From a virus: a DNA stretch of 64,000 nt. Positions within the stretch are counted from its first letter, which is position 1; the number at the start of each line of letters is the position of its first letter. The position numbers were made by a program, and so were the translations under genes. This document shows positions 1,989-48,011 of this stretch, in pieces. The stretch lies in IMG/VR virus record IMGVR_UViG_3300042892_001369, positions 1 to 64,000 of that record. One strand, given 5' to 3'. The notes beneath the pieces were generated by a model. That model worked only from the letters and a program-made list of their open reading frames with translations, had not been told where the DNA came from and searched no databases.

Positions 1989-2735
1989 TTAGTTTTTAGA
2001 GTTAATTTCTTCTGCTTGTGATTTCTGTGCGGCTACTTGTATAATTTCTGGATCCCTAATTATAACCCCAGCATATAAAAGTATTTTGGTTATTACATTT
2101 GTTTGCTCTGAAGGATCTAAATCAAATTGAACAGAATTTGGAGGCGAATATATATATGGACCAGTAGTCCACGGCACTCCACCTATCCCTGTATATCCCC
2201 ATATAACGTTATTCGGTTTTCTAATATAAGAAACACTTATAATATTATTTCCAGTTATATCTTTTGGATAAACATATATGCGCGGTAATGTTGGTGTTGT
2301 GCCAATAGTGCCTAACGTTGCATTCTCATATAAATATACCGGAAATTGTTTTGATGGTTTTGTAAGGGGAGATAAATTAAGATACAATAGTTGATCTTTT
2401 TGAACTCGTTCAATTTCTATCTCATCTTTGTATATTACAGTACCAAGCTTATGTAGATTTGCCGGCACAACAAAATGGTCAGTACTAAATGTACAATTAC
2501 CAGCTGTTTTAAATATAGACAATAAACTATCTATATTTTTTTGTCTATCGGCGTATTCCGTATTAGCTTGTGGAACTCTTAATTGTTGGTTTAAATCATC
2601 AAAATAAGACTCAAATATTTCTAATTGCACTTGAGTTGCTACTTTATTAAACTCATCAGGAGTCATATACCCTCTCTGTTCTTTATTAAGAATGGAAAGG
2701 ACTGTTTTGTAAACTGTATCTACGTTTATTGCCAT
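1989..2735 (-). CDS. connector ring protein
   Basis: 248 aa. The N-terminus, INVDTVYKTVLSILNKEQRGY followed closely by TPDEFN, matches a conserved structural family found after the capsid gene in Bacteroidota and marine phages. Six bases separate it from the downstream adaptor gene, so they are co-transcribed. It is probably a ring of the head-tail connector. The exact ring number cannot be told from sequence alone. The leader (2736-2758) is short and A/T-rich with no Shine-Dalgarno, like other genes here. Confidence 0.6.
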   Translation of the reverse strand: MAINVDTVYKTVLSILNKEQRGYMTPDEFNKVATQVQLEIFESYFDDLNQQLRVPQANTEYADRQKNIDSLLSIFKTAGNCTFSTDHFVVPANLHKLGTVIYKDEIEIERVQKDQLLYLNLSPLTKPSKQFPVYLYENATLGTIGTTPTLPRIYVYPKDITGNNIISVSYIRKPNNVIWGYTGIGGVPWTTGPYIYSPPNSVQFDLDPSEQTNVITKILLYAGVIIRDPEIIQVAAQKSQAEEINSKN

Positions 2736-2758
2736 TTTTTTGTTTTTATTATAATATT

Positions 2759-2796
2759 TAGGCAGCTACCGCGTTTATCTACGCAATAGCCGCCTA
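2759..2796 (-). terminator. imperfect hairpin between capsid-region genes
   Basis: TAGGC at the left pairs with GCCTA at the right, with inner GCTA/TAGC-like and CGCG/CGC pairing, giving a GC-rich stem in an AT-rich gap between the 254-aa gene and the ring protein gene. There is no U-tract on the leftward transcript, so it may be a processing or attenuating hairpin and not a true terminator. Confidence 0.4.
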
Positions 2797-2813
2797 TATA
2801 TTAGTATTACGTA

Positions 2814-3578
2814 TTATTGAAGTTTTTTCTCAATAGACTGGAAGATCTCTATACCTTCATCTGTTTTGAAAAATGCTGCCATAGCCGAATACGGGTTTTC
2901 ATCAAAAGGAACGGTCATTAATTTTTTACCGTTTGTTGCCCATTTGAAATCACGTTGATCAGGTGACAACTTTATAATGTTAGCCTCGCATGCTTTAATA
3001 GCAAAATTACGTAGCTGAATATTTTCATCATTAACCAAATCTAAGAATAAACTTGGGTTTCTTTTAGCAAAGATCAACAAATCTCTTTTTATCTCCTTAG
3101 AAGCCATCTTAGATACCTTAGATCCAATTTCAACTCTTAGTATTGCTTCTGCTTGATCAACATCCATAGCTTTAGCTGCAGTCATTGCTTCTAATTCCAT
3201 TTCCAATGTATCAAGTTCGTCCACCGCGCTAAGTACTGCATCGAATTCACGATACTTTCTATTTAACATAGGATGGAAAAGTGATAAAAGTTTTTGTAAA
3301 TTTTGCTTTTCTTTTGGAACCGTTAGTATTCCATCACTAAACATAATATGGCCTAATGTAGCCTCCCCTTTTTGTTCATCAACAAATGGAGAGTTTTGAT
3401 TAGTTGCATACCTTAATTCTCTTTGTTCTCCCGTTTCTTCATCAAACCACAATAATGGAAATCTCCTTGAATGTCTTGATGAAATTGTGTATGTTAACGG
3501 AGTATGATGCCCTGTTAATAAATATGTTCTATCTTTAACCTCCCAATTTTGAGGTTCGGTTTGTTTTAATTTTGACAT
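2814..3578 (-). CDS. conserved structural-region protein, unknown function
   Basis: 254 aa, placed directly downstream of the major capsid gene and its terminator-like hairpin. Contains two tracts: an N-terminal mixed region with TYLLTGHHTPLTYTI and a helical middle (about 110-190) rich in Glu/Lys/Ala. No enzyme motif is visible. Position suggests a head completion, capsid auxiliary or connector role. I do not recognise the family with certainty. Confidence 0.5.
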   Translation of the reverse strand: MSKLKQTEPQNWEVKDRTYLLTGHHTPLTYTISSRHSRRFPLLWFDEETGEQRELRYATNQNSPFVDEQKGEATLGHIMFSDGILTVPKEKQNLQKLLSLFHPMLNRKYREFDAVLSAVDELDTLEMELEAMTAAKAMDVDQAEAILRVEIGSKVSKMASKEIKRDLLIFAKRNPSLFLDLVNDENIQLRNFAIKACEANIIKLSPDQRDFKWATNGKKLMTVPFDENPYSAMAAFFKTDEGIEIFQSIEKKLQ

Positions 3579-3681: not shown

Positions 3682-5148
3682 TTAAGATACAGATGTGAAT
3701 AACACGAAGTTATTAGCACCTTGTACACATAAACATCTTTCTGATAAGAAGTTTACCTCCATTGCATCTAAGTCAGAAGTGTAAGCACCACCAACAGATC
3801 CAAGTACCCAAGATTTCATTCTACGGTCATCAGCTTGTGAAGCTCTATAACGAACGTGTAAGAATGGTCTACGGATGTTTGTACCTAATACTTGATCATA
3901 AACTGTAGAAGTTCCAGCTGGAACCAATACTCCGTCAATAGCAGATTTAGTAACTGCTCCACGAGTAGAAGCATCATTCAAATATTTCCAGTCAGTTTTA
4001 TAGAAATCGTAAGATCCTCTACGGAAACCAGAGAAACCTAAGTTCAATGCCATTTCAGAAGAGTTTTCAAATAATCCATAAGCAACCCCACCTTGAGCTC
4101 CAGAAGATAATGCAGCAAGCATATCATCAAACTCTAATGAAGTTTGACGGTTTAAGAACAACATGTTTTCTTCAATAGCTCCCTGAGTATCTAAGTTTCT
4201 TAAGATTGAATCAAATTCAGCTAATCCAGCAGCAGCAGTAAAGTTGTTCAATACGTTACCTCTTTCTTCAACAGCTGCAAAAAGACCTTGTGTACCTTTT
4301 TTACCAGCGGTAGCTGCAGCAGACTGAATACCACTGTTCTGAGTAGTTAAAGCTAATTCACCTTCAACAACCGACATTTCTAAGTAATCTTCAAAACGTA
4401 ATCTTGTTTCAGATTCCGCTTTTAAATACCACATGAAACCACCAGCCCCATCTTCAGTAGCAATTTCTACCCAGCCAATCTGAGCAGTGTCAGAACCATT
4501 AACCGTATATTTGTTACGGATGATAATAGGAGAGTTGGAAAATTGTGTAAAGCTAGGCTCAATACTAGTATAGTTATCTCCGTCAAGAGAAAAAGATGAT
4601 CCCTTTTTATATTCAGAACCATAAACGAATATTTTAACTACATCACCAGCCGTAAAAGTAGGGGTTAAAGCAACGGTTGTATAGGAAGCAACATCTACAT
4701 TAGTAGTAGATTGTGTTGGCTTACTAGTTACAACTGCTTTTAATTCAACACCTGTAGTAGGGTTCATAATAACAATTGTCTGATTAATAGACAATACATT
4801 AGCTACGTAATCCTTAGGATTAGTAGGAGTAAGGTTAACAGGAATACTAATAGTATTTCCATCAACAATTTCTACATTATTATAAGCAATGTGTAATCTA
4901 TTCTGTTCTGACCAAATAACCTGATCAGAAGCCATTGGCATCTCGGCTCCTACCATACGTAAGAAACCAGATAAAGTTCTATTACCATAACGCTCTACTT
5001 CTTGTTCGTAGATCTCTGGTAAATATTGTTGAGCGAAAGATACGAAATCCAAATTGTTAGGATCCGTAAAGTTTAAATAATTTGTATCTAAAGCTTGTTG
5101 CTTCTGGGACGGTTTAATGGTCCCAAAGTTAGGCGTAACATTTGCCAT
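3682..5148 (-). CDS. major capsid protein
   Basis: 488 aa. Located immediately after the scaffold gene and before connector genes, the standard head-module place. N-terminal region has FGTIKPSQKQQALDTNYLNF and FAQQYLPEIYEQEVERYG, which resemble Bacteroidota podovirus-like and crAss-like capsid N-termini. The middle (about 95-190) is beta-rich with many Thr/Val and looks like an inserted surface domain. C-terminal part has LHVRYRASQADDRRMKSW. A strong terminator-like hairpin follows (3633-3659), consistent with a highly expressed gene. HK97-like fold is expected from the gene order; it is not proven by reading. Confidence 0.8.
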   Translation of the reverse strand: MANVTPNFGTIKPSQKQQALDTNYLNFTDPNNLDFVSFAQQYLPEIYEQEVERYGNRTLSGFLRMVGAEMPMASDQVIWSEQNRLHIAYNNVEIVDGNTISIPVNLTPTNPKDYVANVLSINQTIVIMNPTTGVELKAVVTSKPTQSTTNVDVASYTTVALTPTFTAGDVVKIFVYGSEYKKGSSFSLDGDNYTSIEPSFTQFSNSPIIIRNKYTVNGSDTAQIGWVEIATEDGAGGFMWYLKAESETRLRFEDYLEMSVVEGELALTTQNSGIQSAAATAGKKGTQGLFAAVEERGNVLNNFTAAAGLAEFDSILRNLDTQGAIEENMLFLNRQTSLEFDDMLAALSSGAQGGVAYGLFENSSEMALNLGFSGFRRGSYDFYKTDWKYLNDASTRGAVTKSAIDGVLVPAGTSTVYDQVLGTNIRRPFLHVRYRASQADDRRMKSWVLGSVGGAYTSDLDAMEVNFLSERCLCVQGANNFVLFTSVS

Positions 5149-8790: not shown

Positions 8791-11010
8791 TTATATTATT
8801 TTTGAAGTATTGCCATTATTGTCGTATTTCTTAAAATTCAAAGGCACTGCTCTTTTCTGTACCTCGTAAACAGGAGAGTACAGATGCCTATTACATGCCA
8901 TTATAGCTAAGCCCGAACTAATAGAGGCGTCATGCTTTGTTCTATCATTGATATTAAACCTTGCCCAGTCATTTAGTGTCTTTTGAAAATACATATCTCC
9001 GTGATAATCACCTTGGATCCCAACATAGTTTTCTATATATGTTTCAATTGCTGCTGCGTGAGCTTGTATAATATCTTGACCTGAGTTAGGTATACCACCA
9101 ATTTCTTTTTCTGTTGGTGATAATTTGTTCCATGTTTTATCTGGTCTATTCATTGAAAAACCTCTATATCCTCTTCGCTTAAAATAATATAACAATCGAG
9201 CTTTATTATTCTCTGCTAATATAGGCATACCATAAAACACACAAGCCATTAATACTTCTTCAAAGAATATTTCTGCCGTTTGTGGTCTGGCTACATATTC
9301 AAGAAAGAAATGGTTTGCGGGTATGTTTTCCATTGAAAATTTTGTTAACCCATGTAAAGCTCCATTAGAACCTCTTGTGTCAACTGTTCCTGATATATCA
9401 TAACTATCACAGCCAAAAGCACCACAGTGCTCATTACCAGGATATTTGATACCATCTTTTATTATTACGCGGTTTTGCAAGTATTTATCGGGAACCCAGC
9501 TAATTAAGAATCTTCCATCTTGGCTTGGGTAAAATATTACTTTTGAATCTTGTATTCCGTTTTCCCATTGAAAACTTCCACGAGTAATAACATTTGTATT
9601 TCTTAAATCATCGTTATAATCAATCTGCTCATATATCTTTGTCAAATTGAATAATGATTGTTTTGTTTCGTCTCTAAAAGCGTGTTGTTCTGTTCTTGGG
9701 AACTGACGGTAATATTCATTTAATGCATCAGAATCGCCTTTTAAACCTTCAACTTCATTTTGCCAATGCTCAATTACTCCTGTTTCAATCCAGTTACCAT
9801 CAACCCCTTTTATTGGTTTTGACGGAGTATCGAAGACAGGTAAGCCATAAGTATCAATGAATCCCTCGTACGACCATTCCATAGGTATGAACAAACTATA
9901 TAATCCTGAAGCAGTCTGTCCATTGCGGTTTCTTTTCGTAACATCTGAATTGTAATAAAGTTTCTTAAAGTTTTCTCCTCCTTTATCTAAAGCATTTGAT
10001 GTTGATCCCATCATACACTTACCGATAATTCTCGATCCTAATCGTAAACAGGTCTTAGTAACACGCCAGTTATTTAATATATTATCAGGTCGTTCCCATT
10101 TACCACTTTCATCATGTACCAGTAACTTTAACTTTTCACCATCATAGGAGTTGTCCCCTGTGTTCTTCCAGTCAATAGTTGTATCTAATCCATCTAACTC
10201 TTCTAACTTTTCATTAGTATCGAGTTTTTTACGTGTAAGCTTTGACGCAGGTATTCTATATGCTAATTCTGTTTTTGGTCTATCCATACCATCTTGGATA
10301 GGTTTAAAAAAGAATGGGTAATTTATAGATATTGGCACTACTTTGTCTGTGAACATCTTTTTAGCATCTGCCCCTGACTTAGAAAGTATACCGTATCTGG
10401 AATCGCTTGATATAGTTGCTTGATTAACTAGCTCAGCAGATGACATAAATGAAAACCCGGAACGTCTATTCTTTAAATAAGACATACCGTAACATCTATT
10501 ATCTGCTTTACAAGCTTCCCAGAATATAAAGAACAATCTATTAGATTCTCTGAAATCTGGTGCACCAATATCTATCTTGCTCCATTGCAAGTACATGTAG
10601 TGTGTCCCTGTTATATAAGTAGGTTTCCCATTATTATAAAAAGCAAAACCTTCTTCTCTATACTTAAATTCTTGATCGATGTAATCATACCAGTGCTCTT
10701 TAAAAGCTTCCGGGTATTTATTCCAATCAAAAACATTTTTTATTTTTGATATTTCTTTTGGAATTTCTAATTGTTCCCAATATTGATCTTCCTGTTTATT
10801 AGATCTTTTATATGCTCCATCTATTAAAGGTAAAGCAATTTTAAGATTCTGTATTTCGTATATTTCACCAATCTTTCCAGTCTTACTAATAACAACAACA
10901 TCATGTTCCCGGTTATATCCGTATTCCCATTTGTTGTGTCTATTCTTTTGCTTTATTATATTAGGTCTAATATGATCGGTAATTTCTCTATATAAAGTTT
11001 GTTCGTACAT
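8791..11010 (-). CDS. terL: terminase large subunit
   Basis: 739 aa. ATPase part: a deviant Walker A, KNRRSGFSF, near residue 183 and a Walker B/catalytic block LLVHDESGKW near residue 298. The nuclease part begins around residue 535 with FGCDSYD, a plausible first metal-binding Asp of an RNase H-like domain, followed by ILAENN and RRGYRGF. Packages DNA into the prohead through the adjacent portal. Starts within one base of the upstream 91-aa gene (overlapping stop/start). Confidence 0.85.
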   Translation of the reverse strand: MYEQTLYREITDHIRPNIIKQKNRHNKWEYGYNREHDVVVISKTGKIGEIYEIQNLKIALPLIDGAYKRSNKQEDQYWEQLEIPKEISKIKNVFDWNKYPEAFKEHWYDYIDQEFKYREEGFAFYNNGKPTYITGTHYMYLQWSKIDIGAPDFRESNRLFFIFWEACKADNRCYGMSYLKNRRSGFSFMSSAELVNQATISSDSRYGILSKSGADAKKMFTDKVVPISINYPFFFKPIQDGMDRPKTELAYRIPASKLTRKKLDTNEKLEELDGLDTTIDWKNTGDNSYDGEKLKLLVHDESGKWERPDNILNNWRVTKTCLRLGSRIIGKCMMGSTSNALDKGGENFKKLYYNSDVTKRNRNGQTASGLYSLFIPMEWSYEGFIDTYGLPVFDTPSKPIKGVDGNWIETGVIEHWQNEVEGLKGDSDALNEYYRQFPRTEQHAFRDETKQSLFNLTKIYEQIDYNDDLRNTNVITRGSFQWENGIQDSKVIFYPSQDGRFLISWVPDKYLQNRVIIKDGIKYPGNEHCGAFGCDSYDISGTVDTRGSNGALHGLTKFSMENIPANHFFLEYVARPQTAEIFFEEVLMACVFYGMPILAENNKARLLYYFKRRGYRGFSMNRPDKTWNKLSPTEKEIGGIPNSGQDIIQAHAAAIETYIENYVGIQGDYHGDMYFQKTLNDWARFNINDRTKHDASISSGLAIMACNRHLYSPVYEVQKRAVPLNFKKYDNNGNTSKII

Positions 11011-11285
11011 TATTTAGACCTCCCTTCTGCAAAACCCTTGAAAACTTTTGTTTCAGTAGTATTTTCTGCTTCGTCCATCATTCGCTCTTCTTCTTGAATG
11101 CGACTTAATATTTCAAAGGCATCAAAGATTGCAAGCTTTTTTGTGGCTGCTGCATTTTTTAATTTGTCAGCGGATAAATCATCTTCTCCGTTTTCGAGGA
11201 TAGCTTCTTCGGCTACTTTGATTAATTCTAGTACAGCTTTATGACCAGCGACTATTATATTCCTCTTCGTCTCCTTTATATCCAT
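11010..11285 (-). CDS. small helical protein, possible small terminase subunit
   Basis: 91 aa, highly helical, with LSADKLKNAAATKKLAIFDA in the middle and an acidic tail. It overlaps terL by one base and the upstream gene by 47 bases. Position directly before terL suggests a small terminase role, but no helix-turn-helix is obvious and small subunits diverge too much to call by eye. Confidence 0.45.
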   Translation of the reverse strand: MDIKETKRNIIVAGHKAVLELIKVAEEAILENGEDDLSADKLKNAAATKKLAIFDAFEILSRIQEEERMMDEAENTTETKVFKGFAEGRSK

Positions 11286-11841
11286 ATTTAATTACAATAT
11301 CATTAGATTTCATACAATATAATCTCTGATCATCTATGATAAATTCAAATTCCCCGTAAGGCTTGTATCCAACTAGGTCACCAGGATTGATTCCGAGCTT
11401 GTTTAAGGACTCGTTTCCATATTTTAGTATTCCAATATGCTTACGCTCTTTATCGAGCTTAAATTGGTCTATATTTTTTATTGGCTTAACAAAGCAACGG
11501 TCCCCATAAGAGCGCCATTCATTATCTCTGTTATACAAATAAATTTGGTCAGGAGCACAAAAGTATAAATCTTCTTTAAAGTATGATCTACTATTCTTTT
11601 GTCTACCTTTAATATCATAGAAGCGTCTAAATACATTATGGTGTATTACAATAATATCACCAGGTTTTATATCGGTTTCAAAAGCTAATGGAACAGAAAC
11701 AACTTCTGCTAACTTATTAACTGATTTGAAACTTTCTATTCTAGTATTTATTATTAATTGTTTACCATTAACATCAATACTATTATTATATCTAGAGCCT
11801 ACAGGTTTAATTATAAAATCAAATACAGCTGTCATATTCAT
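11239..11841 (-). CDS. tandem GroES-like (co-chaperonin fold) protein
   Basis: 200 aa. Two halves each show a GroES-type barrel pattern. First half: IIKPVGSR near the N-terminus, then DIKPGDIIVIHHNVFR and a closing DQIYLY. Second half: RCFVKPI, HIGILKYG, INPGDLVGYKPYG, then LYCMKSNDIVI. GDxV/I followed by a Tyr/Phe-rich strand and a terminal DI-V strand is the GroES C-terminal signature. It lies between small genes and the terminase, about 3.6 kb from the canonical groES/groEL pair. Role is inferred: a second co-chaperonin, or a structural use of the same fold. No clear mobile-loop GG-[IVL] motif is visible. Confidence 0.55.
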   Translation of the reverse strand: MNMTAVFDFIIKPVGSRYNNSIDVNGKQLIINTRIESFKSVNKLAEVVSVPLAFETDIKPGDIIVIHHNVFRRFYDIKGRQKNSRSYFKEDLYFCAPDQIYLYNRDNEWRSYGDRCFVKPIKNIDQFKLDKERKHIGILKYGNESLNKLGINPGDLVGYKPYGEFEFIIDDQRLYCMKSNDIVIKYGYKGDEEEYNSRWS

Positions 11842-14732: not shown

Positions 14733-14993
14733 TTAAATTGTTGGTCCCATTACACGATCATAAGATCCGTCTGTTGGCATTCCAAATACGCCTGTCATTG
14801 TAGATTGCGTTTTTGGATTAAAGTTTACAGGTGCGCCAGATGGCTTTACACCTGGATTGAATGTACGTGGTTCGGAAACAATTGGAGCCGTAGGAATTGT
14901 AGTACCCGTTAAACTCATATTTGTAGTAGTTGCCGCGCTTGGTAACATACCAGGATCAGCCGGCATTCCTTTCATTTGATTGTTGTATATCAT
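14733..14993 (-). CDS. hypothetical Pro/Thr-rich protein
   Basis: 86 aa, low complexity: PSAATTTNMSLTGTTIPTAP and FNPGVKPSGAPVNFNP. Appears extended and disordered. It overlaps by four bases the start of the winged-helix-like gene. Function unknown. Confidence 0.5.
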   Translation of the reverse strand: MIYNNQMKGMPADPGMLPSAATTTNMSLTGTTIPTAPIVSEPRTFNPGVKPSGAPVNFNPKTQSTMTGVFGMPTDGSYDRVMGPTI

Positions 14994-15436
14994 CTTGTTT
15001 TATCTTTGTTTAAATTATTTATTGCTGAACGTAATACAATATCTGTATATGTATTATTCTTCATTATTTTATTACTTCTTGCTGTAGTTGGAATATCTTC
15101 TTCTCCTAGCATAATCCGGTACATTCTATGTATTAGTTGTTTGCACTTGAATGAAACTTTATATATGTTATACTTCTGGGTTGTACGGTTTCTATTTCTC
15201 CATACCACTATCCATCCTTCTTTTAACAAATTGTTCCAGCGCTTATTGTCCCAACTATATGCGTATGTACCTATCTTATAATCTTGCTTGGTAAAAAAGT
15301 CCATGCAATCAAAATATATTAATAATTCTAAATCAGCGTCAGTAAGATCATAATTTCTACAAGCCCATCTGCGTATTAACCTATAATGTTTTAATAAGCC
15401 AAGACTTTTTATATCACTAGCTTCTATTCTTCTCAT
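14990..15436 (-). CDS. winged-helix-like protein
   Basis: 148 aa with LTDADLELLIYFD, then KRWNNLLKEGWIVVWRNRNR and a beta wing (YNIYKVSFKCKQL). This order of helices plus a wing resembles MarR-like winged-helix DNA-binding proteins. Overlaps groES by four bases and is co-transcribed with the chaperonin genes, so it might regulate late genes or act in packaging. Family assignment is by pattern only. Confidence 0.5.
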   Translation of the reverse strand: MRRIEASDIKSLGLLKHYRLIRRWACRNYDLTDADLELLIYFDCMDFFTKQDYKIGTYAYSWDNKRWNNLLKEGWIVVWRNRNRTTQKYNIYKVSFKCKQLIHRMYRIMLGEEDIPTTARSNKIMKNNTYTDIVLRSAINNLNKDKTR

Positions 15437-15693
15437 AGAACTATTACAACGTCTTGTAATCTTATAACTTGATATTCATGCCCGTCAAATTCAATTCCAT
15501 GACCTGCAGCTTTATCATAGTAAATAACATCAGCTTCTTTTAAACATTTAATATCTTCACTAACAGAAACTACAATAGCTTCTTTATATCTAATGTTTTC
15601 TTTATCTTTTTCTTTTAATAATAAACCATTTTCCGTTTTTGATAATCCCTCTTTCCTTGGGAGGATCACTATATTATTACCTATTGCCTTCAT
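15433..15693 (-). CDS. groES: GroES-type co-chaperonin
   Basis: 86 aa. AIGNNIVILPRKEG at the start, GLLLKEKDK in the place of the mobile loop, VVSVSED, then DVIYYDKAAGHGIEFDGHEYQVIRLQDVVIVL: a complete GroES barrel with the terminal QDVV strand. It caps GroEL and follows it directly, overlapping by 17 bases, as an operon. The mobile-loop consensus GGIVL is degenerate, suggesting it is tuned to the phage GroEL next door. Late expression points to folding of virion proteins. Confidence 0.85.
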   Translation of the reverse strand: MKAIGNNIVILPRKEGLSKTENGLLLKEKDKENIRYKEAIVVSVSEDIKCLKEADVIYYDKAAGHGIEFDGHEYQVIRLQDVVIVL

Positions 15694-17239
15694 TGATTCT
15701 TAAATTATTAATTATACAATCAGTTGACAATATGGTAATAGCTACAGAAGCTGCATTCATTAATGCACTTTTTGTAACAGATAATGGATCAATAATACCC
15801 GCTTCAATCATATTAACTTCTTCTCCAGTTACAGCATTCAATCCAGAGCCATCTGGACGACTTGCAGTTGAACTTGGTATATCAATACCCGCGTTAGTTA
15901 ATATTGTCTTAAACGGAGCCGTAATAGCTTTTAACAACGCTTCTTCAGCTTTATTCTTGAATACAATTATTCTTGATGCATCTAAAAGAGCAATTCCTCC
16001 TCCCGGAACAATTCCTTCTTTAATAGCTGCTTTAGTTGCGCAAATTGCATCTTCAACTCTATCTGCTTTTTCTTTTAATTCAATATCAGATCCAGCACCC
16101 ACTTTTACTACTGCTACTTTTGCAGATAATCTAGCTAATCTTCTTTCTATTCTAATTACTTCAGCCGGTGGTAAGCTTGCTTCTAATTGTGATTTTAATT
16201 CATCAATTAAAACTTGAACTTCTTCTTTTGTTTCACCAACATGCAATATAGTCTCTGTATCACTAGTTATTGCTTTTAAACAATGACCTAAACAATCTGT
16301 ATCAATAAGATCCATATCATCTCCTAAGTCCTCATTTATAATAGTAGCACCTGTTAACAATGCTAAATCCGATAATGTATCTTTTTTATTAATACCGTAC
16401 GTCGGGGCATTAATCACATTTACTTTAATATTACCTTTTACTTTATTCATTGCAAGAGCGGCTAATACTGTCGGCTCTATGTCTGCAATAATAAGTAATG
16501 GCTTGTTTGCTTTTATAACGTATTCTAAAACCGATTGTATTTGTCTTATAGATTCAACTGGTGATTCAATAAGCAATACTAATGGATTTTCTAATTCAGC
16601 AACTCTTTTGTTAGGATTAGTAATAAAATGTGAATTTACTAAACCTTTATCATATTGGACACCATCAATAATTTCTATTTCCGTTTCTGCATTTGCCGAT
16701 GATTCCATCATAACAATTCCGGTTTCACCCACCTCTCTAAATGCATCTGCAATAATCTTTCCAAGTACTGGATCATTATTAGTTGAAATCGTAGCAATGT
16801 GATCTATCATATCTCCATTTACAGGAACTTTAATAGATTCTAAATATTCTACTACTTTGTCAACTGTTTGTTCAATACCGTTCTTTAAGTCTCTTGCATT
16901 AACTGTATCTTGGACTGCGTAAGCTTCTTGTAAAATAGCATGAGCTAATACTGTTGCAGTTGTTGTTCCGTCTCCGGCTTCTTTAACTGTTTTTCTAGCT
17001 GCTTCTTTTAAAAGTCTCGCACCCATATTTTCAACTGGATCAAGTAGTGTAATGCTGTCTGCTACTGTAACACCGTCTTTTGTAATAATCGGCCTACCTT
17101 TTCCGTCTTCTAGCATTACACATTTTCCACCCGCTCCAAGTGTTGAACTAACTGCTTTTGTAAGTTTCTCGATACCTGCAAAAACATTGTCCCTCGCCTC
17201 TTTGCCGAAGCTGAGGTTTTTAACTATTTCATCGCTCAT
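15677..17239 (-). CDS. groEL: GroEL-type chaperonin
   Basis: 520 aa versus about 548 in E. coli. Conserved ATP site AGDGTTTATVLA near the N-terminus, LGAGGKCVMLED, the apical domain in the middle, and VKVGAGSD and RVEDAICATKAAIKEGIVPGGG (hinge/ATPase aspartate in VEDA). The C-terminal Gly-Gly-Met repeats are missing; it ends INEGNR. It assembles a folding chamber with GroES, presumably for capsid or tail proteins. Start ATG is followed by DEIVKNL. Codon and base usage look like neighbours, so any capture is old. Confidence 0.95.
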   Translation of the reverse strand: MSDEIVKNLSFGKEARDNVFAGIEKLTKAVSSTLGAGGKCVMLEDGKGRPIITKDGVTVADSITLLDPVENMGARLLKEAARKTVKEAGDGTTTATVLAHAILQEAYAVQDTVNARDLKNGIEQTVDKVVEYLESIKVPVNGDMIDHIATISTNNDPVLGKIIADAFREVGETGIVMMESSANAETEIEIIDGVQYDKGLVNSHFITNPNKRVAELENPLVLLIESPVESIRQIQSVLEYVIKANKPLLIIADIEPTVLAALAMNKVKGNIKVNVINAPTYGINKKDTLSDLALLTGATIINEDLGDDMDLIDTDCLGHCLKAITSDTETILHVGETKEEVQVLIDELKSQLEASLPPAEVIRIERRLARLSAKVAVVKVGAGSDIELKEKADRVEDAICATKAAIKEGIVPGGGIALLDASRIIVFKNKAEEALLKAITAPFKTILTNAGIDIPSSTASRPDGSGLNAVTGEEVNMIEAGIIDPLSVTKSALMNAASVAITILSTDCIINNLRINEGNR

Positions 17240-17289: not shown

Positions 17290-17433
17290 TTACCTGCCTT
17301 GTCCTCGATATTGCTTTTTATAATTTTTTGAAGACTTCAATACAGATGTTTTAGCTTTAGCATGAATACCTGGACGGCTTATATTCTTCTCATCTATTTT
17401 AATTGAGCTCTGTGTTGCTTTTTGTTTAGACAT
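17290..17433 (-). CDS. 47-aa basic conserved phage protein
   Basis: Read directly: ATG 17431-17433, stop 17290. It holds ISRPGIHAKAKTSVLKSSK followed by YKKQYRGQGR. I recognise this small basic type from aquatic phages. Lies between groEL and a spanin-like gene. Function unknown; nucleic-acid binding is possible given its charge. Confidence 0.65.
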   Translation of the reverse strand: MSKQKATQSSIKIDEKNISRPGIHAKAKTSVLKSSKNYKKQYRGQGR

Positions 17434-17437
17434 TATT

Positions 17438-17905
17438 TTAAAATAATTTATATTCAACAATAACTACATACGTAGAAAGATTATTTGGTTGTGCTAAATA
17501 CTGCGCTCCCGCTCTTATTTTATTAAAACTTAGCAAGACGGTTGCAGATAAGCAGGGTTGCATTGTATTATTTCCAATAGTTCTTAACCCTAAGTATCCA
17601 TTTAATTTTGGCTTTTCCCACCAGCCAATAGCTTTGTCTTGAATAGTTATAATTTCATTTTTTTTAGAAAGTATACTATCTTTAATCTTTATGATTTCTG
17701 CAAGTTCATCATTCTGTTCCTGCAAGTTTTTAATCTCTTCTTCCTTAAGAATTAACTTTTGCTTACACAAATCACCTTTAACAATATCTTTAACTACCTC
17801 TCTAGCTACACTCTCATTTAATACTATCTTTTTGATTGTATCGGTTTGAGAAAAACTCTTGAAGCTTACTAAAAGCAATAGTATCAATAATTTTAATCGT
17901 ATCAT
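17438..17905 (-). CDS. signal-peptide coiled-coil protein, spanin-like
   Basis: 155 aa. N-terminal signal peptide (LKLLILLLLVSFKSFSQ) followed by a coiled coil of about residues 30-95 (KEEEIKNLQEQNDELAEI) and a beta C-terminus. Its start lies inside the upstream membrane coiled-coil gene (92-base overlap in another frame), the classic overlap of spanin pairs. It may span the periplasm in the final lysis step. No lipobox Cys is evident, so it is not a textbook o-spanin. Confidence 0.55.
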   Translation of the reverse strand: MIRLKLLILLLLVSFKSFSQTDTIKKIVLNESVAREVVKDIVKGDLCKQKLILKEEEIKNLQEQNDELAEIIKIKDSILSKKNEIITIQDKAIGWWEKPKLNGYLGLRTIGNNTMQPCLSATVLLSFNKIRAGAQYLAQPNNLSTYVVIVEYKLF

Positions 17906-18149
17906 GTTCTATTCTTGTTAATGTTCTTTGTTTTTCAATAATCGTATTTTTGCCAAGCTTTAAACTATCAAGTTTATTCCAGTGAGATTCTTCTTGCTTC
18001 TCTAATGCTTTAATTTCTTTTTCAAGTCGTTCCTTTTCTTTTTTTAATTCATTATTCTTGCCTATCCCGTAAATTAAGAATAGGCCGAATAATATGATTA
18101 GGATGGTTCCTAGCCATTGTTGTTTTATAAAATTACTTATATGGAACAT
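17814..18149 (-). CDS. i-spanin-like membrane coiled-coil protein
   Basis: 111 aa. A short N-terminal cytoplasmic part, a membrane segment (LGTILIILFGLFLIYGI), then a charged coiled coil (KEKERLEKEIKALEKQEE). This is the inner-membrane spanin layout. Overlaps the endolysin by 17 bases and the next spanin-like gene by 92 bases. Predicted to act with its partner in outer membrane disruption. Confidence 0.6.
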   Translation of the reverse strand: MFHISNFIKQQWLGTILIILFGLFLIYGIGKNNELKKEKERLEKEIKALEKQEESHWNKLDSLKLGKNTIIEKQRTLTRIEHDTIKIIDTIAFSKLQEFFSNRYNQKDSIK

Positions 18150-18600
18150 AACTTGTTTTGCCGTTTGTTTTTACGGCTTTAAGAATTTGCTTTCTTTGCT
18201 TGCCCGTTGATTCATAAGAAACATGAACCCAATCTGGATTTTTATCTGTACCAAATTCCCAAATCATTTGGTCAAAGACTAAGTTATCTTTAATAAAATC
18301 AAATACCATTTTATTGGTTATGCCATTTGAACTTCCGTCCATGTCAATGTCAATAGCTTCTCCCTGGCAATGCTGCGAAGATAAGCTCCCCCCAATAGCT
18401 GCATTAAGAGCCTTGCTTCTGTATCCTGATGATATATGAATAGGAACTCCAAAGTGTTCTCTAATTGGTTGGAATATATTCTCAGCTAACTTCTTAAAGT
18501 TTTCAATATGCTCCGGAGTTGGCATATTGCTAATTCCTTTTCTCTTTGCAGTTTCGCTTCTTGTAACTTCTGCTAATGTTAAATTTTTACTCAGTTGCAT
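18133..18600 (-). CDS. endolysin, M15-family peptidase
   Basis: 155 aa from the preferred start at 18598-18600 (MQLSKNLTLAEVTRS); an upstream ATG at 18651 adds 17 Lys-rich residues inside the holin gene and is less likely. Zinc site motifs: SQHCQGEAIDID (HxxxxxxxD) and PDWVHVSY (final His), plus SSGYRSKALN. This is the VanY/M15 D-Ala-D-Ala type. Cleaves peptidoglycan cross-links. Adjacent holin and spanin genes confirm the lysis context. Confidence 0.85.
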   Translation of the reverse strand: MQLSKNLTLAEVTRSETAKRKGISNMPTPEHIENFKKLAENIFQPIREHFGVPIHISSGYRSKALNAAIGGSLSSQHCQGEAIDIDMDGSSNGITNKMVFDFIKDNLVFDQMIWEFGTDKNPDWVHVSYESTGKQRKQILKAVKTNGKTSYVPYK

Positions 18601-18838
18601 CTTTTTCTTGTTTTTTGTTATTAAATATTTTGCCTGCAGTAGCAATACCAAAGACTACCGATGTTAACATCAAAAATCCATTAAAAATAAATTCCTCAAT
18701 TACTAATTTTGATCCCCACACTCCGGTAATAATATCTACTAGAAAAGCGAGTACCATCATAAAAAAAGAAATTACACCAACAAATGATTTTTCGTTTATT
18801 GTATTATTGTCACTAATTAATTCTTTCCAAAATCCCAT
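18587..18838 (-). CDS. holin
   Basis: 83 aa with two predicted membrane segments (about residues 18-40, FVGVISFFMMVLAFLVDII, and 46-70, FIFNGFLMLTSVVFGIA) and a short charged C-terminal tail KNNKKQEKDATE-like. Directly upstream of the endolysin, overlapping it by 14 bases. Sets the time of lysis by opening the inner membrane. Confidence 0.7.
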   Translation of the reverse strand: MGFWKELISDNNTINEKSFVGVISFFMMVLAFLVDIITGVWGSKLVIEEFIFNGFLMLTSVVFGIATAGKIFNNKKQEKDATE

Positions 18839-41349: not shown

Positions 41350-43065
41350 ATGCAAACAATAGAGATAAATGGTTTTTTGATTGACCAATTCAATCAATAC
41401 AAGCTTGAAGAAGGTAAGTCTCAAGGAGTTTGTCCTTTATGTTCAGCTGATAGAAAAGGTGAACACAAAAAATTAAAGTGTGCTTCTTACGATTGGGAAA
41501 AAGGTATTGGTACTTGTCATAATTGTAACAAGTCATTCCAACTACATACTTACCAAAGAAAAGGAGCAAGCGAAAAGGTTTATATGAAGCCGCCAGTAAA
41601 AGAGCATGTCGAGGAAATGCAACTAAGCGAGCAGGTAATTAAATGGTTTGATTCACGAGGTATATCTAAAAATACTCTTTATGAATTAGGTGTAACTGAA
41701 GGTCCTGAGTTTATGCCTCAAACAGCTAAGGTAGAAAATGCAATACATTTTAATTATTTCATTGGTGATCAGCTAATCAATATAAAGTATAGAGACGGTC
41801 GCAAAAACTTTAAACTATATAAAGGAGCTGAAAAAATATTTTACAATATAAACAGCATTGTAGGATATGAATATTGTGTTATTGTTGAGGGTGAAATGGA
41901 CGTGCTAGCGTTACATGAAGCAGGAATAACAAATGCTATTTCAGTACCTAATGGCGCAACATTACATACAAATAATTTAGAATACCTAGACAATTGTATT
42001 GATTATTTCGACGACAAGAATAGAATAATTATTGCAGTAGACTCAGACGAAGCTGGGCAAGCATTACAATCTGAATTAATCAGAAGACTAGGATCTGAAA
42101 CTTGTTATATTGCAACATTTGAAGATTGTAAAGATGCAAATGAATACTTATTAAAATATGGCAAAGAAGCTTTAGCACAAAGAATTGGGAAAGCAAAGCC
42201 AGTGCCTTTAGAAAATGTTACAACATTTAAAGACATAGAAGATGAGATTACGGATTTTGTTAGGAATGGTTTCAAACCTGGTTTTCAAGTTGGGCTATCT
42301 AATTTCGATGATATATTCAGCACTTATACTGGTCAGTTTATTACTGTTACTGGTGTGCCTAGTTCGGGCAAGTCTGATTTTGTTGATCAAATGGTTGTAG
42401 GCTATAATAAAAACTACGGTTGGAAAACAGCTTATGCTTCTCCTGAGAACTCACCAACATATTTGCATGCTCATAAGTTAATGCGTAAAGTTTGGGAGGG
42501 TATGCCAACAGAAGCAGATATTTATTCTGAAAGATGGAATCAAGTTGCGGATCATGTTAACGATAACTTTTTCTTTATCGATATGGAAAAATATACATTA
42601 GATGCAGTTCTTAAAAAAGCTGGTGAGCTTGTAAAAAGAAAAGGTATTAAGTGTCTTGTTATAGACCCATTCAATAAGGTTAGAGACAATGATGCGTCTG
42701 GTGATGTTAATGTATATACATTAGAATACCTAAGTAAGATTGAAATCTTTGCTAAAAAATATGATGTATTAGTAATGGTTGTTGCGCATCCTACTAAAAT
42801 GTATAAAGGTTCTGATGGTAAAATTGAAGAGCCAACTATGTACAACATTAAAGGCGGAGGCGAATGGTACGACGCATCTTATCATGGCTTATTAGTCCAT
42901 AGAGATTATGAAAACAAAACTGTTAAAGTAAAAGTACTTAAGGTTAAGTTTCAGAATCTTGGTGAGAACGGAGCTGAATGTTATTTTGCTTGGGAACCAA
43001 AGTCAGGTTGCTTTATTCCTCACATACCAATAGACACGTCTAATGATAAGCTTCCCTGGGAATAA
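41350..43065 (+). CDS. bifunctional primase-helicase (T7 gp4-like)
   Basis: 571 aa. Zinc ribbon: CPLC (C28, C31) and CHNC (C56, C59). TOPRIM: IVEGEMDVLALHEAG with acidic DSDEAG near 231. DnaB-like helicase: Walker A GVPSSGKS at about 335-342 and Walker B with CLVIDPFN further on, then AHPTKMYKG (helicase motif). Primes and unwinds at the replication fork. No phage DNA polymerase is seen, so it probably loads the host enzyme. Confidence 0.9.
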   Translation: MQTIEINGFLIDQFNQYKLEEGKSQGVCPLCSADRKGEHKKLKCASYDWEKGIGTCHNCNKSFQLHTYQRKGASEKVYMKPPVKEHVEEMQLSEQVIKWFDSRGISKNTLYELGVTEGPEFMPQTAKVENAIHFNYFIGDQLINIKYRDGRKNFKLYKGAEKIFYNINSIVGYEYCVIVEGEMDVLALHEAGITNAISVPNGATLHTNNLEYLDNCIDYFDDKNRIIIAVDSDEAGQALQSELIRRLGSETCYIATFEDCKDANEYLLKYGKEALAQRIGKAKPVPLENVTTFKDIEDEITDFVRNGFKPGFQVGLSNFDDIFSTYTGQFITVTGVPSSGKSDFVDQMVVGYNKNYGWKTAYASPENSPTYLHAHKLMRKVWEGMPTEADIYSERWNQVADHVNDNFFFIDMEKYTLDAVLKKAGELVKRKGIKCLVIDPFNKVRDNDASGDVNVYTLEYLSKIEIFAKKYDVLVMVVAHPTKMYKGSDGKIEEPTMYNIKGGGEWYDASYHGLLVHRDYENKTVKVKVLKVKFQNLGENGAECYFAWEPKSGCFIPHIPIDTSNDKLPWE

Positions 43066-43412
43066 TGAGTAGCGGTAACAAGAAAGGTAAAGCAATAGAT
43101 ATGGGTAATTATGTAGCTAAAGAAAGAGAACAAGCGGCTTATGTTTGGTGCATACATAATAATATATTTATTGCACCTAAAGCAAAGAGTACAACTGAAT
43201 GGTATATTTGTATTACTTCTAATGGCAAAACAACACAAAGTCCTTTAGCTTATGAAAGGATCGATATATGGAAAGAGATATATAAGTTCTATACTTATTA
43301 CTATGATAAATATAGTGGCGTTAAAGTTATTAAAGAAGTACAGCCAAGAAAGTTTATAAAAGAGGAACCAGTAAAGCAAAAAGAAAAACCAACAATAAAT
43401 ACTTTATTTTAA
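43065..43412 (+). CDS. hypothetical protein linked to the primase-helicase
   Basis: 115 aa. KGKAIDMGNYVAKEREQAAY, TEWYICITSNGKTTQSPLAY and a basic Pro/Lys tail. Its start overlaps the helicase stop (TAATG), indicating translational coupling. No family recognised; possibly a replication accessory. Confidence 0.55.
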   Translation: MSSGNKKGKAIDMGNYVAKEREQAAYVWCIHNNIFIAPKAKSTTEWYICITSNGKTTQSPLAYERIDIWKEIYKFYTYYYDKYSGVKVIKEVQPRKFIKEEPVKQKEKPTINTLF

Positions 43413-43413
43413 T

Positions 43414-44181
43414 ATGACAAAATACGAAGCGCAATATAAAGAATTGTTATGGAAATGTATGACGAACGGAGTATATCGTAAAGATAGAACAAACGTAGGT
43501 TGTTTATCAATATTCAATGCTGGCTTAAGAATTAATCTCAATGAAGGTTTCCCTTTGTTAACTGGTAGAAAAATGTTTCAAAAAACTTTTGATACAGAGT
43601 TTGATTGGTTTATGAATGGTGAAACTAATATTCAAAGATTCAAAGATGCTGGTGTAAAGATATGGGATTCTTGGGCAGATGAGAATGGAGATCTAGGACC
43701 AGTATATGGTTACCAAATGCGTAACTTTAATGGTGCTGGCGGTGATCAACTTCAAGCCTTGATAACAAGTTTAAAAAATAATCCTGATAGCAGAAGACAT
43801 ATAATATCACTATGGAATCCATTACAGTTACATCAAATGGCATTGCCTCCGTGTTATTTATATTTCCAATTCTTTGTAGAACAAGACAGACTTAATATGT
43901 TTGTAGTACAGAGATCAGGTGATATTTTTTTAGGAATCCCTTATGATGTAGCTTTGTTTTCAAAAATACTTTTGTATATTGCGGAGCAAACTAATTTGAA
44001 AGCAAGCTATATTGATATACAGATCGTAGACGCTCATGTTTATAACAATCAACATGATGCTATACACAAATATCTTGATCAAGAAACTTTTCAAGCACCT
44101 GACTATATTTACAAAAACGGAGCATTATCCCTAATAAATTACAAACACGGACCAGTAATAACGGCAAAAGTAGCCATTTAA
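43414..44181 (+). CDS. thyA: thymidylate synthase
   Basis: 255 aa (E. coli 264). Catalytic Cys147 in LPPCYLYFQF, SRRHI for the phosphate at about 127-131, QRSGDIFLGIPYDVA and the final HVYNNQHDAI. Makes dTMP with methylene-tetrahydrofolate. Together with the RNR and MazG proteins it directs nucleotides to phage DNA. Confidence 0.95.
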   Translation: MTKYEAQYKELLWKCMTNGVYRKDRTNVGCLSIFNAGLRINLNEGFPLLTGRKMFQKTFDTEFDWFMNGETNIQRFKDAGVKIWDSWADENGDLGPVYGYQMRNFNGAGGDQLQALITSLKNNPDSRRHIISLWNPLQLHQMALPPCYLYFQFFVEQDRLNMFVVQRSGDIFLGIPYDVALFSKILLYIAEQTNLKASYIDIQIVDAHVYNNQHDAIHKYLDQETFQAPDYIYKNGALSLINYKHGPVITAKVAI

Positions 44182-44189
44182 TCTTAATT

Positions 44190-45080
44190 ATGTATTATAT
44201 ATATCACATTTTTGGTAAAAAGATCGGCGTTACACGTAATCTTAATAAGAGAGTTGAAGTTGCTCAGGGCTATATGCCAGAAGAATATGAAGTGATCGAA
44301 ATGCATGACGACATACATCACGTTTCAAATCGCGAAAGAGAACTACAACGGCTTTATGGTTATAAAGTTGATCGAGATTCCTACAAACAAGTAATAGACA
44401 GTAAAAATAAACTAACTAAATCAAATAAAATGAAATTAAACATCACAGAACAAACGATTACGTTTCCATGTCCTCCAAATAAATTAAAAGGACAGCTTTT
44501 GGACTCATTAGGACTTACATTTGAAACACAATATGGCAAATACATATTGAATACTGAACTAGTAGATTGGATTGTCCAGAACGCTTCTGTGTCAATGTTT
44601 AATATTAATAGAAGTTTTGTATACAATAAAGCTTTACATAATACCTTCCAATCTCCAGAAGCATTTGTTGAACAAAAATTGGCACCCGCCGAACAAACAC
44701 TTGCTGATATGCGCAGACAATTAAATGAAATGCTTAATGAAGTGCTTAATAATAAACAACCACAAGAGGAAATTGATCCTACCGCTAATGTATATGATTT
44801 AATTAGAGATTGGGCCAGCAAGAAAGGTATTTATACATCAGGTGATTCTAAAACGCAATATGTTAAGCTAATGGAAGAATCAGGAGAATTAGCAAGAGCA
44901 ATTCTTAAACGAGATAAACCAGAAATTAAAGATGCAATTGGTGATATGATTGTAGTATTAACTAATCTTGCATACTTAGAAGGTTTTGATATTGAGGATT
45001 GTGTTACATCAGCTTACGATGTAATTAAGAATCGAACAGGTAAAATGGAAAACGGAACTTTTGTAAAATCTACATTATAA
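44190..45080 (+). CDS. GIY-YIG-like / MazG fusion protein
   Basis: 296 aa. N-terminal ~70 residues YYIYHIFGKKIGVTRNLNKRV resemble a GIY-YIG strand pair (YIY...KIGVT) but without an obvious full catalytic set. The C-terminal part (about 215-290) has MEESGELARAILKRDKP, KDAIGDMIVVLTNLAYLEG and KNRTGKME: MazG-type nucleotide pyrophosphohydrolase. An internal Met at about 75 (KLNITEQ) could give a shorter product. Cleans nucleotide pools or dampens ppGpp; inference. Confidence 0.75.
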   Translation: MYYIYHIFGKKIGVTRNLNKRVEVAQGYMPEEYEVIEMHDDIHHVSNRERELQRLYGYKVDRDSYKQVIDSKNKLTKSNKMKLNITEQTITFPCPPNKLKGQLLDSLGLTFETQYGKYILNTELVDWIVQNASVSMFNINRSFVYNKALHNTFQSPEAFVEQKLAPAEQTLADMRRQLNEMLNEVLNNKQPQEEIDPTANVYDLIRDWASKKGIYTSGDSKTQYVKLMEESGELARAILKRDKPEIKDAIGDMIVVLTNLAYLEGFDIEDCVTSAYDVIKNRTGKMENGTFVKSTL

Positions 45081-45081
45081 T

Positions 45082-45549
45082 ATGCAAAAACAAGAAATTG
45101 AATTTAGAGACCCAGTCGTACAACAAGTAGTAAATAAATTTGTATCAAGATCTGATGTTGGCTTTGCTAAATATGGCAAGACTATGATTGATGACAAATC
45201 TGATATTAAAGTCTGGCTTAATCATGTTCAAGAAGAATTAATGGATGCTACATTATATATTCAAAGATTGAAAATTGAAATCAATGATCTAATTGAAGAA
45301 CGTGTAACAAGAAATGAAATACAAGCTTTATTAGATTGCATTAATGTTGTAAATCCAGAATATGTTTCACCAAAAGTTAAACCATTTAATGGCATATACG
45401 AAACTATTGCAAAGCATGAAAAGAAAAAGGCAAAGAAAAAACACAAAGCCTACCGTGTAAATCGTGGTGATACTTATTCTTTTACTATGGATGATGATTT
45501 TGAATGGCAGGTAAGTTGTACTAATTGTTGTATGAATGAGAAAAGCTAG
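45082..45549 (+). CDS. MazG-like nucleotide hydrolase-type protein
   Basis: 155 aa. VNKFVSRSDVGFAKYGKTM and WLNHVQEELMDATLYIQRL match a family of small phage all-alpha NTP hydrolase-like proteins. The C-terminus is basic (KHEKKKAKKKHK). Follows the fusion protein with one-base spacing. Confidence 0.65.
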   Translation: MQKQEIEFRDPVVQQVVNKFVSRSDVGFAKYGKTMIDDKSDIKVWLNHVQEELMDATLYIQRLKIEINDLIEERVTRNEIQALLDCINVVNPEYVSPKVKPFNGIYETIAKHEKKKAKKKHKAYRVNRGDTYSFTMDDDFEWQVSCTNCCMNEKS

Positions 45550-45997
45550 AAAGAAAGGACCAGTAGTTGCAAAAAAAGTAATATATGATGGTATTACCTT
45601 TGCTTCAGGTCTTGAAAAGTATATGTACAAAGCTTTAAAAGATGCGGGTATAGATTTTAAATATGAGGGGGTAACGTTTGAATTGTTGCCCTCTTTCATA
45701 TTTGAAAATGTTTCAATAGAAAGACAATCAAATGGCAAGGGAGATTTTATTAATAGGGGTCTAAAAAAGATATTAAACCTTAAATATACTCCAGACTTTG
45801 TTGGTGATAATTTTATAATTGAAACTAAAGGTAGAGCTAATGAATCTTTTCCATTACGTTGGAAACTATTTAAGAAGTGGATGATGGATAACAACGATTA
45901 CCGAACATTATATAAGCCTCAGAATCAAGCTGAGTGTCTTAAAACAATTGAATTAATATTAGCTAATACAAAACAAAAAAAGAATGAACAAATTTAG
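45536..45997 (+). CDS. T7 gp3-like Holliday-junction endonuclease
   Basis: 153 aa. ITFASGLEKYMYKALKDAG, then NLKYTPDFVGDNFIIETKGRA, the PD-(x)-ETKG core of T7 endonuclease I-like enzymes (DUF1064-type). Resolves branched DNA before packaging. Overlaps the previous gene by 14 bases and the next by 14. Confidence 0.8.
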   Translation: MRKARKKGPVVAKKVIYDGITFASGLEKYMYKALKDAGIDFKYEGVTFELLPSFIFENVSIERQSNGKGDFINRGLKKILNLKYTPDFVGDNFIIETKGRANESFPLRWKLFKKWMMDNNDYRTLYKPQNQAECLKTIELILANTKQKKNEQI

Positions 45998-46133
45998 TGA
46001 AAAAAGTTGGTCAATATCCATTGGCCTGTATACAGGAATCTTATTAGGATTCAGAGCATATGAGGAAGAATATTATACAACCTATGTATTGTATTTGCCA
46101 TTTGTTGATGTTGCATTAGAAATTGATAATTAA
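45984..46133 (+). CDS. 49-aa small conserved phage protein
   Basis: Read directly: ATG 45984-45986, TAA ending 46133. SWSISIGLYTGILLGFRAYEE and LYLPFVDVALEID. I recognise this small protein from marine phages next to nucleotide-metabolism genes; function unknown. Confidence 0.65.
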   Translation: MNKFSEKSWSISIGLYTGILLGFRAYEEEYYTTYVLYLPFVDVALEIDN

Positions 46134-46142
46134 AAAATAAAT

Positions 46143-48011
46143 ATGAGCCTTAGTTTAGACAAACAAATATTAAGTGATATTACTGTATACACAAAGTATG
46201 CAAAGTACGTTCAATCAAAAGAACGTAGAGAAACGTGGGAAGAATTAGTAACAAGGAATATGGATATGCACAAAGCCAAATTTCCACAAATGAAAGAAGC
46301 AATTGAACAAGTATACAAAAATTTCGTATTCACTAAAAAAGTGTTACCTTCAATGCGCAGCCTACAGTTTGGTGGGAAAGCTATTGAACTTAATAATGCT
46401 CGCATTTATAATTGCGCTTTTTTACCTGTCGATAATATTCGTAGTTTTTCTGAAACTATGTTTTTACTTCTTGGAGGCACTGGCGTTGGATATTCGGTAC
46501 AAAATCACAACATTGATAAACTACCTGAAATAAGAAAGCCTAATTACGATCGCAAAAAACGTTATGTTGTTCAGGATAGTATTATTGGTTGGGCTGATGC
46601 AATCAAAACATTATTCAAATCGTATACAGGAGAGTTAACTTCACATATTGAATTTGATCTTTCAGATATACGCCAGAAAGGAGCATTACTTGTAACAGCA
46701 GGAGGTAAAGCACCAGGGCCGGAACCATTAAGATTAGCATTAGTTAAGATTGAAGCTATTCTTCGCGAAAAAGAAGACAGATCAAAACTAACAGATATTG
46801 AATGCCATGATATTCAATGTCATATTGCCGATGCAGTTTTAGCCGGAGGTATTCGTAGAGCAGCAATGATTTCATTATTCGACCTTGACAGTACTGCAAT
46901 GCTAAATTGTAAAGCTGGAAATTGGTGGGAAGAAAATCCGCAAAGAGGTAGAGCTAATAACTCTGTTGTTTTAGTACGCCATAAAATTGATAAGAAAACA
47001 TTTGATAAAGTATGGGAACGTATTGAAGCATCTGGATCAGGAGAGCCTGGAATTTATCTTACCAATGACAAAGATTGGGGTACAAATCCCTGCTGTGAGA
47101 TTGCATTGAGACCATATCAATTCTGTAATTTAACAGAGATCAATATGGCTAATATTGAAGATCAAGAAGATTTTAATGCAAGAGCATCTGCTGCATCATT
47201 CTTAGGAACATTGCAAGCATCATACTCAGATTTTCATTATCTTCGCGATATATGGAGAAAGAATACAGAAAAAGATGCTTTACTTGGAGTCTCAATGACA
47301 GGTATTGCATCTAAGTCAAACCTAGAATTAAATTATGAAGAAGCAGCAAATACCGTTAAAGAAACAAACAAAGAAACAGCTAAAGCGCTTGGAATTAATA
47401 TCGCAGCAAGAACGACGGCCGTTAAGCCAGCTGGTACAACTAGCTTGGTACTTGGTACTTCTAGCGGGATACATGCTTGGCATAATGACTATTATATACG
47501 TCGTATGCGCTTAGGCAAAAATGAAGCAATTTATTCTTATCTTGCAATTAATCATCCAGAATTACTCGAAGATGAATACTTTAATCCAACATTACAATCA
47601 GTTATTTCAGTCCCTCAGAAGGCTCCAGACGGCGCTATAACACGGCATGAATCAACATTAGATCTATTGGAAAGAGTAAAACTTATATCTAGAGATTGGG
47701 TTAAGACCGGCCATGATAAAGGTAACAATACACACAATGTATCTTGTACTGTTTCTGTTAGAGATGATGAATGGAAAATAATTGGTGAATGGATGTGGGC
47801 AAACAAAGAGTACTATAATGGACTATCTGTTTTACCATATCACGGTGGTACATATAAGCAAACTCCGTTTGAAGATTGTACAAAAGAAGTGTACGATGAA
47901 ATGATGTCTACATTAAAGAACGTAGATTTATCTAAAGTAGTTGAGATACACGATAATACTAACTTTGCTGATTCAGCAGCTTGTGGAGGAGGAAATTGTG
48001 AGATTGTATAG
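46143..48011 (+). CDS. nrdJ: class II (B12-dependent) ribonucleotide reductase
   Basis: 622 aa. RIYNCAFLPV (redox C91), LLGGTGVGYSVQ, ADAVLAGGIRRAAMISLFD, GEPGIYLTND, NPCCEIALRP (thiyl Cys) and FCNLTEINMAN (redox Cys), ARTTAVKPAGTTSLVLG, and a C-terminal CGGGNC pair (C614/C619). Monomeric RTPR-type. Uses adenosylcobalamin to make dNTPs. Shorter than Lactobacillus RTPR (739). Supplies DNA precursors during infection and depends on host cobalamin. Confidence 0.9.
   Translation: MSLSLDKQILSDITVYTKYAKYVQSKERRETWEELVTRNMDMHKAKFPQMKEAIEQVYKNFVFTKKVLPSMRSLQFGGKAIELNNARIYNCAFLPVDNIRSFSETMFLLLGGTGVGYSVQNHNIDKLPEIRKPNYDRKKRYVVQDSIIGWADAIKTLFKSYTGELTSHIEFDLSDIRQKGALLVTAGGKAPGPEPLRLALVKIEAILREKEDRSKLTDIECHDIQCHIADAVLAGGIRRAAMISLFDLDSTAMLNCKAGNWWEENPQRGRANNSVVLVRHKIDKKTFDKVWERIEASGSGEPGIYLTNDKDWGTNPCCEIALRPYQFCNLTEINMANIEDQEDFNARASAASFLGTLQASYSDFHYLRDIWRKNTEKDALLGVSMTGIASKSNLELNYEEAANTVKETNKETAKALGINIAARTTAVKPAGTTSLVLGTSSGIHAWHNDYYIRRMRLGKNEAIYSYLAINHPELLEDEYFNPTLQSVISVPQKAPDGAITRHESTLDLLERVKLISRDWVKTGHDKGNNTHNVSCTVSVRDDEWKIIGEWMWANKEYYNGLSVLPYHGGTYKQTPFEDCTKEVYDEMMSTLKNVDLSKVVEIHDNTNFADSAACGGGNCEIV

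Follow-up and report, generated by a model that had tools for sequence, protein, structure and literature searches.

The analysed window (64,000 nucleotides, nearly all of the 64,532 bases of IMG/VR record IMGVR_UViG_3300042892_001369) comes from an aquatic phage of podovirus-like lineage with a Bacteroidota host. Its minus strand encodes a GroEL and a GroES, and the features considered here are the following.

15677–17239, minus strand: GroEL, Group I chaperonin, 520 aa (Pfam PF00118, phrog_5725, ATP residues)
15433–15693, minus strand: GroES (Cpn10), 86 aa (Pfam PF00166; model matches Cpn10 and gp31 structures)
15677–15693, minus strand: overlap of the groEL end and the groES start, 17 bp (ORF coordinates)
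14990–15436, minus strand: third gene of the string, 148 aa, phrog_17028 (4-bp overlap with groES)
11239–11841, minus strand: Cpn10-like protein, 200 aa, near the terminase gene (phrog_13932, 3.9e-24)
8791–11010, minus strand: terminase large subunit (phrog_6681; 65% identity to MW202828)
3682–5148, minus strand: virion structural protein, 488 aa (phrog_13704)
18133–18651, minus strand: M15-type endolysin, upstream of groEL (Pfam PF08291, phrog_894)

Profile searches identified both members of the pair. The GroEL matched Pfam Cpn60_TCP1 at 213.6 bits (cut-off 34.3) over residues 26–511 and phrog_5725 at 454 bits, and the GroES matched Pfam Cpn10 at 39.7 bits (cut-off 21.1) over residues 2–85. 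An adjacent, full-length GroEL and GroES had been proposed in a preliminary description of this DNA, and these scores bear that out, as the ORF coordinates do for the 17-base overlap that it reported. The GroEL also passed two NCBIfam GroEL subfamily cut-offs; it scored 461 bits against the TIGR02348 equivalog, below the cut-off of 582, and the 86-aa GroES scored far under the NCBIfam equivalog cut-offs.

The two genes lie in a single minus-strand string among lysis and packaging genes, in agreement with their earlier placement in a late operon: the M15 endolysin gene precedes them, and those for terminase, portal and virion structural proteins follow downstream. Late expression of groEL and groES is likely because of the strand and the neighbouring genes. 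A promoter scan, with 29 sites versus 22.8 expected, was uninformative.

Several other genes of the window were noted. Just upstream of groEL (17290–17445, minus strand) is the gene for a very short, basic protein with KNYKKQYRGQGR at its end, which was matched in about one third of the related loci with room for it, and the 148-aa protein (14990–15436) has a winged-helix look, which is an impression only. A nucleotide-metabolism cluster with primase-helicase, thymidylate synthase, MazG-like and ribonucleotide reductase genes occupies 41350–48011 on the plus strand, and a 2936-aa protein with a weak DUF4972 match and no clear family match is encoded at 48380–57190 on the minus strand.

Careful alignment to E. 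coli GroEL, whose numbering is used here, showed that all ATP-pocket residues are retained in the phage GroEL (T30, G32, G35, K51, D52, G53, D87–T91, D398, G414–G416 and D495), so that the ATP motifs are intact as first described, and the ATP-site residues were invariant across 11 family members. The apical groove retains F204, L237 and mostly L259, and carries the substitutions Y199L, Y203H, L234Q, V263A and V264M; L234Q and the other changes in this GroES-binding groove could weaken binding of the lid. The inter-ring segments are shortened, with the E434 loop deleted and E461 not conserved, and the ring-joining residues that were compared (E434, R452, E461, S463 and V464) are not retained as a set. 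Such contacts are typical of Group I chaperonins and are not universal, as single-ring members exist, and their loss here suggests a single or weakly paired GroEL ring. The C-terminal GGM tail, a typical and non-essential feature of Group I chaperonins, was sought by alignment and is absent from the window GroEL, as noted before, and family-wide, whereas all 13 of the 13 Bacteroidota host GroELs used as a control have a glycine/methionine-rich tail and full-length loops.

The phage GroES was compared with 13 Bacteroidota host GroES proteins, E. coli GroES and T4 gp31. Its mobile loop had been described as degenerate, but the loop motif, with its glycine and hydrophobic tripeptide, is intact (KTENGLLL in the window versus KSAGGIVL in E. 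coli and KTASGIFI in the host), and T20 and G23 of the loop were invariant among 24 phage GroES sequences. The part that is reduced in this alignment is the roof hairpin, which is shortened as in gp31 and is a variable feature of the GroES/Cpn10 family. An AlphaFold model of the GroES (pLDDT 82.7, low chiefly at the loop) gave Foldseek matches to Cpn10 structures with E values down to 3.8e-6 and also to gp31 (1g31).

The 200-aa protein encoded near the terminase gene belongs to a family, phrog_13932, that is annotated 'co-chaperonin GroES'. Its own match to Pfam Cpn10 is weak and confined to the C-terminal half (16.2 bits versus a cut-off of 21.1), whereas its phi38:1 and phi40:1 homologs reach 24.1 bits, above that cut-off, and its elemovirus and Callevirus homologs are annotated cpn10 or GroES. 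The model of the protein weakly resembles GroES/gp31 structures, mainly in the N-terminal half, and is poor past residue 113. Taken with the PHROG and Pfam matches, the modelled N-terminal half indicates that the protein probably consists of two Cpn10-like halves in tandem. A conserved HHNVF motif was seen in one of the halves. Among GroEL-selected loci with more than 5.5 kb of downstream sequence, the 200-aa gene was found in 53 of 59, and it may be the gene that a flavophage paper lists as 'chaperonin cpn10' among those common to Pervagoviridae (PMC8776804).

The gene pair recurs in related viral contigs, where the preliminary description had suggested looking for it. A scan of viral contigs returned at least 595 GroEL relatives, and in the best 80 loci, which were retained for neighbour counts, GroES adjoined GroEL in 80/80 and the 148-aa third gene followed groES in 80/80. 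Of the 159 loci that were fetched, 100 have precisely the 17-bp overlap; these 159 are partly duplicates and hold 112 distinct GroEL and 89 distinct GroES sequences. Related loci carry the pair next to phage genes such as terminase. Two irregular cases were observed: in four fetched entries groEL and groES do not overlap but are separated by 361 bp (L009:7564-7924), which may reflect an insertion or faulty assembly, and record G011 (the contig of L059) has at 2087–3529 a second GroEL fragmented over three frames beside an intact one, which is either a degraded gene copy or an error of assembly or sequencing.

Both genes are under purifying selection, with dN/dS of about 0.02–0.18 for GroEL and 0–0.35 for GroES by a simple counting method; for the distant pairs dS approaches saturation. 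The 26 family representatives in a 71-sequence tree formed a single clade (support 100/99) that lies outside the clade holding all sampled bacterial GroELs (99/98). The best bacterial identities were about 40–43%, with about 41% to host GroEL. Because of this separate clade and this identity, the family represents an old phage lineage and no recent host capture; the phylogeny against host genes proposed earlier thus sets the phage family apart. The family joins the elemovirus GroEL in the tree at 87/86, a grouping that may be a long-branch artefact and was given no weight. Bacteroides phage DAC16 and Vibrio phage 2.275.O, by contrast, have GroELs that branch within the host sequences.

Complete pairs had been described as rare, but several cultured phages of Bacteroidota already have one in their annotation, and in this phage group such pairs are the rule. 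Annotated examples are those of elemovirus NC_055853 (gp43/gp44), MW202828, Cellulophaga phi40:1 and immutovirus. Whole-record searches of 17 other GroEL-bearing phage records, which were hand-picked to span the match list and are no random sample, found a Cpn10 above the Pfam cut-off in 11; these include large Vibrio phages in which the Cpn10 is present but lies away from GroEL. In the same searches no Cpn10 match was found for EL, PBS1, JM-2012 and VP4B, the phages with the most divergent GroELs. Phage GroEL–GroES pairs are therefore widespread and already annotated in relatives, and the window pair adds one more. Two side observations concern the match lists. In phage DAC16, a GroES (L165:2718-2981; Cpn10, 76.6 bits) lies directly ahead of a GroEL that looks host-derived, and the pair is annotated only as hypothetical. 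The top GroEL matches AFYI01000007.1, AGRM01000005.1 and CAKLQH020000021.1 are filed as phage and look bacterial, two of them being 501-kb Salmonella records, so that match counts from the phage collection are slightly inflated.

Podoviridae sp. ctfjg026 (MW202828), the nearest named phage judged by its terminase (65% identity), shares with the window groEL ahead of groES, an overlap of the annotated genes, and a homolog of the 200-aa Cpn10-like protein ahead of terminase; its GroEL, however, is longer (542 aa) and only 34–35% identical, and its GroES 38% identical. The Flavobacterium elemovirus (NC_055853 gp43/gp44) likewise has groEL ahead of groES with overlapping ends, a GroEL without GGM tail and with the E434 loop deleted, a roof-reduced GroES and a Cpn10-like gene beside terminase, but its GroEL and GroES are 39% and 28% identical to those of the window and its pair lies on the strand opposite its late genes. 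Cellulophaga phages phi40:1 and phi38:1 (Pervagoviridae, Callevirus) also encode a GroEL, 37–38% identical to that of the window, and two Cpn10-family genes, one of them ahead of terminase; unlike in the window, Cpn10 stands ahead of GroEL with one gene intervening, near the DNA polymerase gene. The bacterial systems of E. coli and Flavobacteriaceae share both partners, their folds, the ATP site and the mobile-loop pattern, but have the GGM tail, the inter-ring contacts and the longer GroES roof, and in E. coli the GroES gene comes first; identity to these systems is about 40%.

T4 gp31 has the same roof-reduced Cpn10 fold as the window GroES, whose model matches 1g31, and T4 provides the lid only, relying on host GroEL (PMC9598537). 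The chaperonins of EL, OBP and AR9 are phage-encoded GroELs as well, for which single-ring states are known (PMC7185714, PMC9598537) and activity without a co-chaperonin has been reported (PMC9598537). They are much more distant in sequence (EL GroEL, 27%), and the window differs from this co-chaperonin-independent type in that a Cpn10 gene adjoins its GroEL.

The explanation that we consider probable is that the genes encode a genuine Group I pair of Bacteroidota podovirus-like phages, which would act late in infection as a phage-specific chamber and lid for folding phage proteins. The phage GroEL and its own GroES, which would prefer each other as partners, would form an ATP-driven chamber and lid specific to the phage, and this chamber would fold phage proteins produced in bulk late in infection, its clients most likely being head or other virion proteins. 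The 488-aa structural protein (3682–5148) is one candidate client, guessed at from the order of the genes and by analogy. GroEL may cycle as one ring or as two loosely paired rings with the roof-reduced lid, and such a lid could, as in gp31, leave more room in the chamber for large virion proteins. The idea of a private chamber shaped by co-evolution, raised in the preliminary description, fits the lost tail and inter-ring contacts, the altered groove and the constant linkage to GroES. Peptides of the phi38:1 GroEL have been detected in infected cells and, it seems, in preparations of free virions too (PMC13288928), which indicates that GroEL is expressed by one relative at least. Weighing against this explanation are the sub-equivalog NCBIfam scores, the altered groove and the lid-free precedents of EL, OBP and AR9.

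A more elaborate form, in which a self-contained single or loose ring, rid of the double-ring lock and the GGM tail, needs its own roof-reduced GroES and a second, tandem Cpn10-like lid encoded at the terminase serves different virion clients, is considered somewhat unlikely. Alternatively, the phage GroEL might work without a lid, as do those of EL, OBP and AR9, and the phage GroES might mainly redirect host GroEL, as gp31 does. The loss of inter-ring contacts and tail, the altered groove, the action of EL and AR9 without a co-chaperonin and the gp31-like roof reduction of the GroES would all suit this alternative. Linkage of the two genes in every GroEL-selected locus (80/80) is unexpected for proteins that never meet, however, and it is the most divergent phage GroELs (EL, PBS1, JM-2012 and VP4B) that have no Cpn10 match; we therefore regard lid-free action as unlikely. 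That the pair has no specific phage clients and boosts general host folding capacity, under infection stress or when the host grows slowly, is quite unlikely: its ATP site and mobile loop look like those of ordinary chaperonins, which speaks for this reading, but the pair sits among lysis and packaging genes and its sequences depart from the host system.

It is very unlikely that the main role of the GroEL lies in the virion or in virion assembly and not in protein folding, since its ATP site and the mobile loop are retained under purifying selection, as for an active folding cycle, and since GroEL is a common contaminant of lysates; in favour of such a role, phi38:1 GroEL peptides are listed in what looks like the table for free virions (PMC13288928). 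Misassembly with a host contig, the concern raised in the preliminary description, or recent host capture can be dismissed with near certainty, as nothing was found in favour of either, the same pair recurs in 159 fetched loci and is found beside phage genes, and the distance from bacterial GroELs and the separate clade rule out capture.

In conclusion, the interest of this family lies in its stripped-down features and its second Cpn10-like gene rather than in the existence of the pair. The tail, the ring pairing and the lid roof are reduced, yet the family retains both ATP site and mobile loop, and it thus constitutes a good natural test of which GroEL features matter when chamber and lid co-evolve under phage control. 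Cultured relatives, such as the elemovirus and Callevirus, open the family to laboratory testing.
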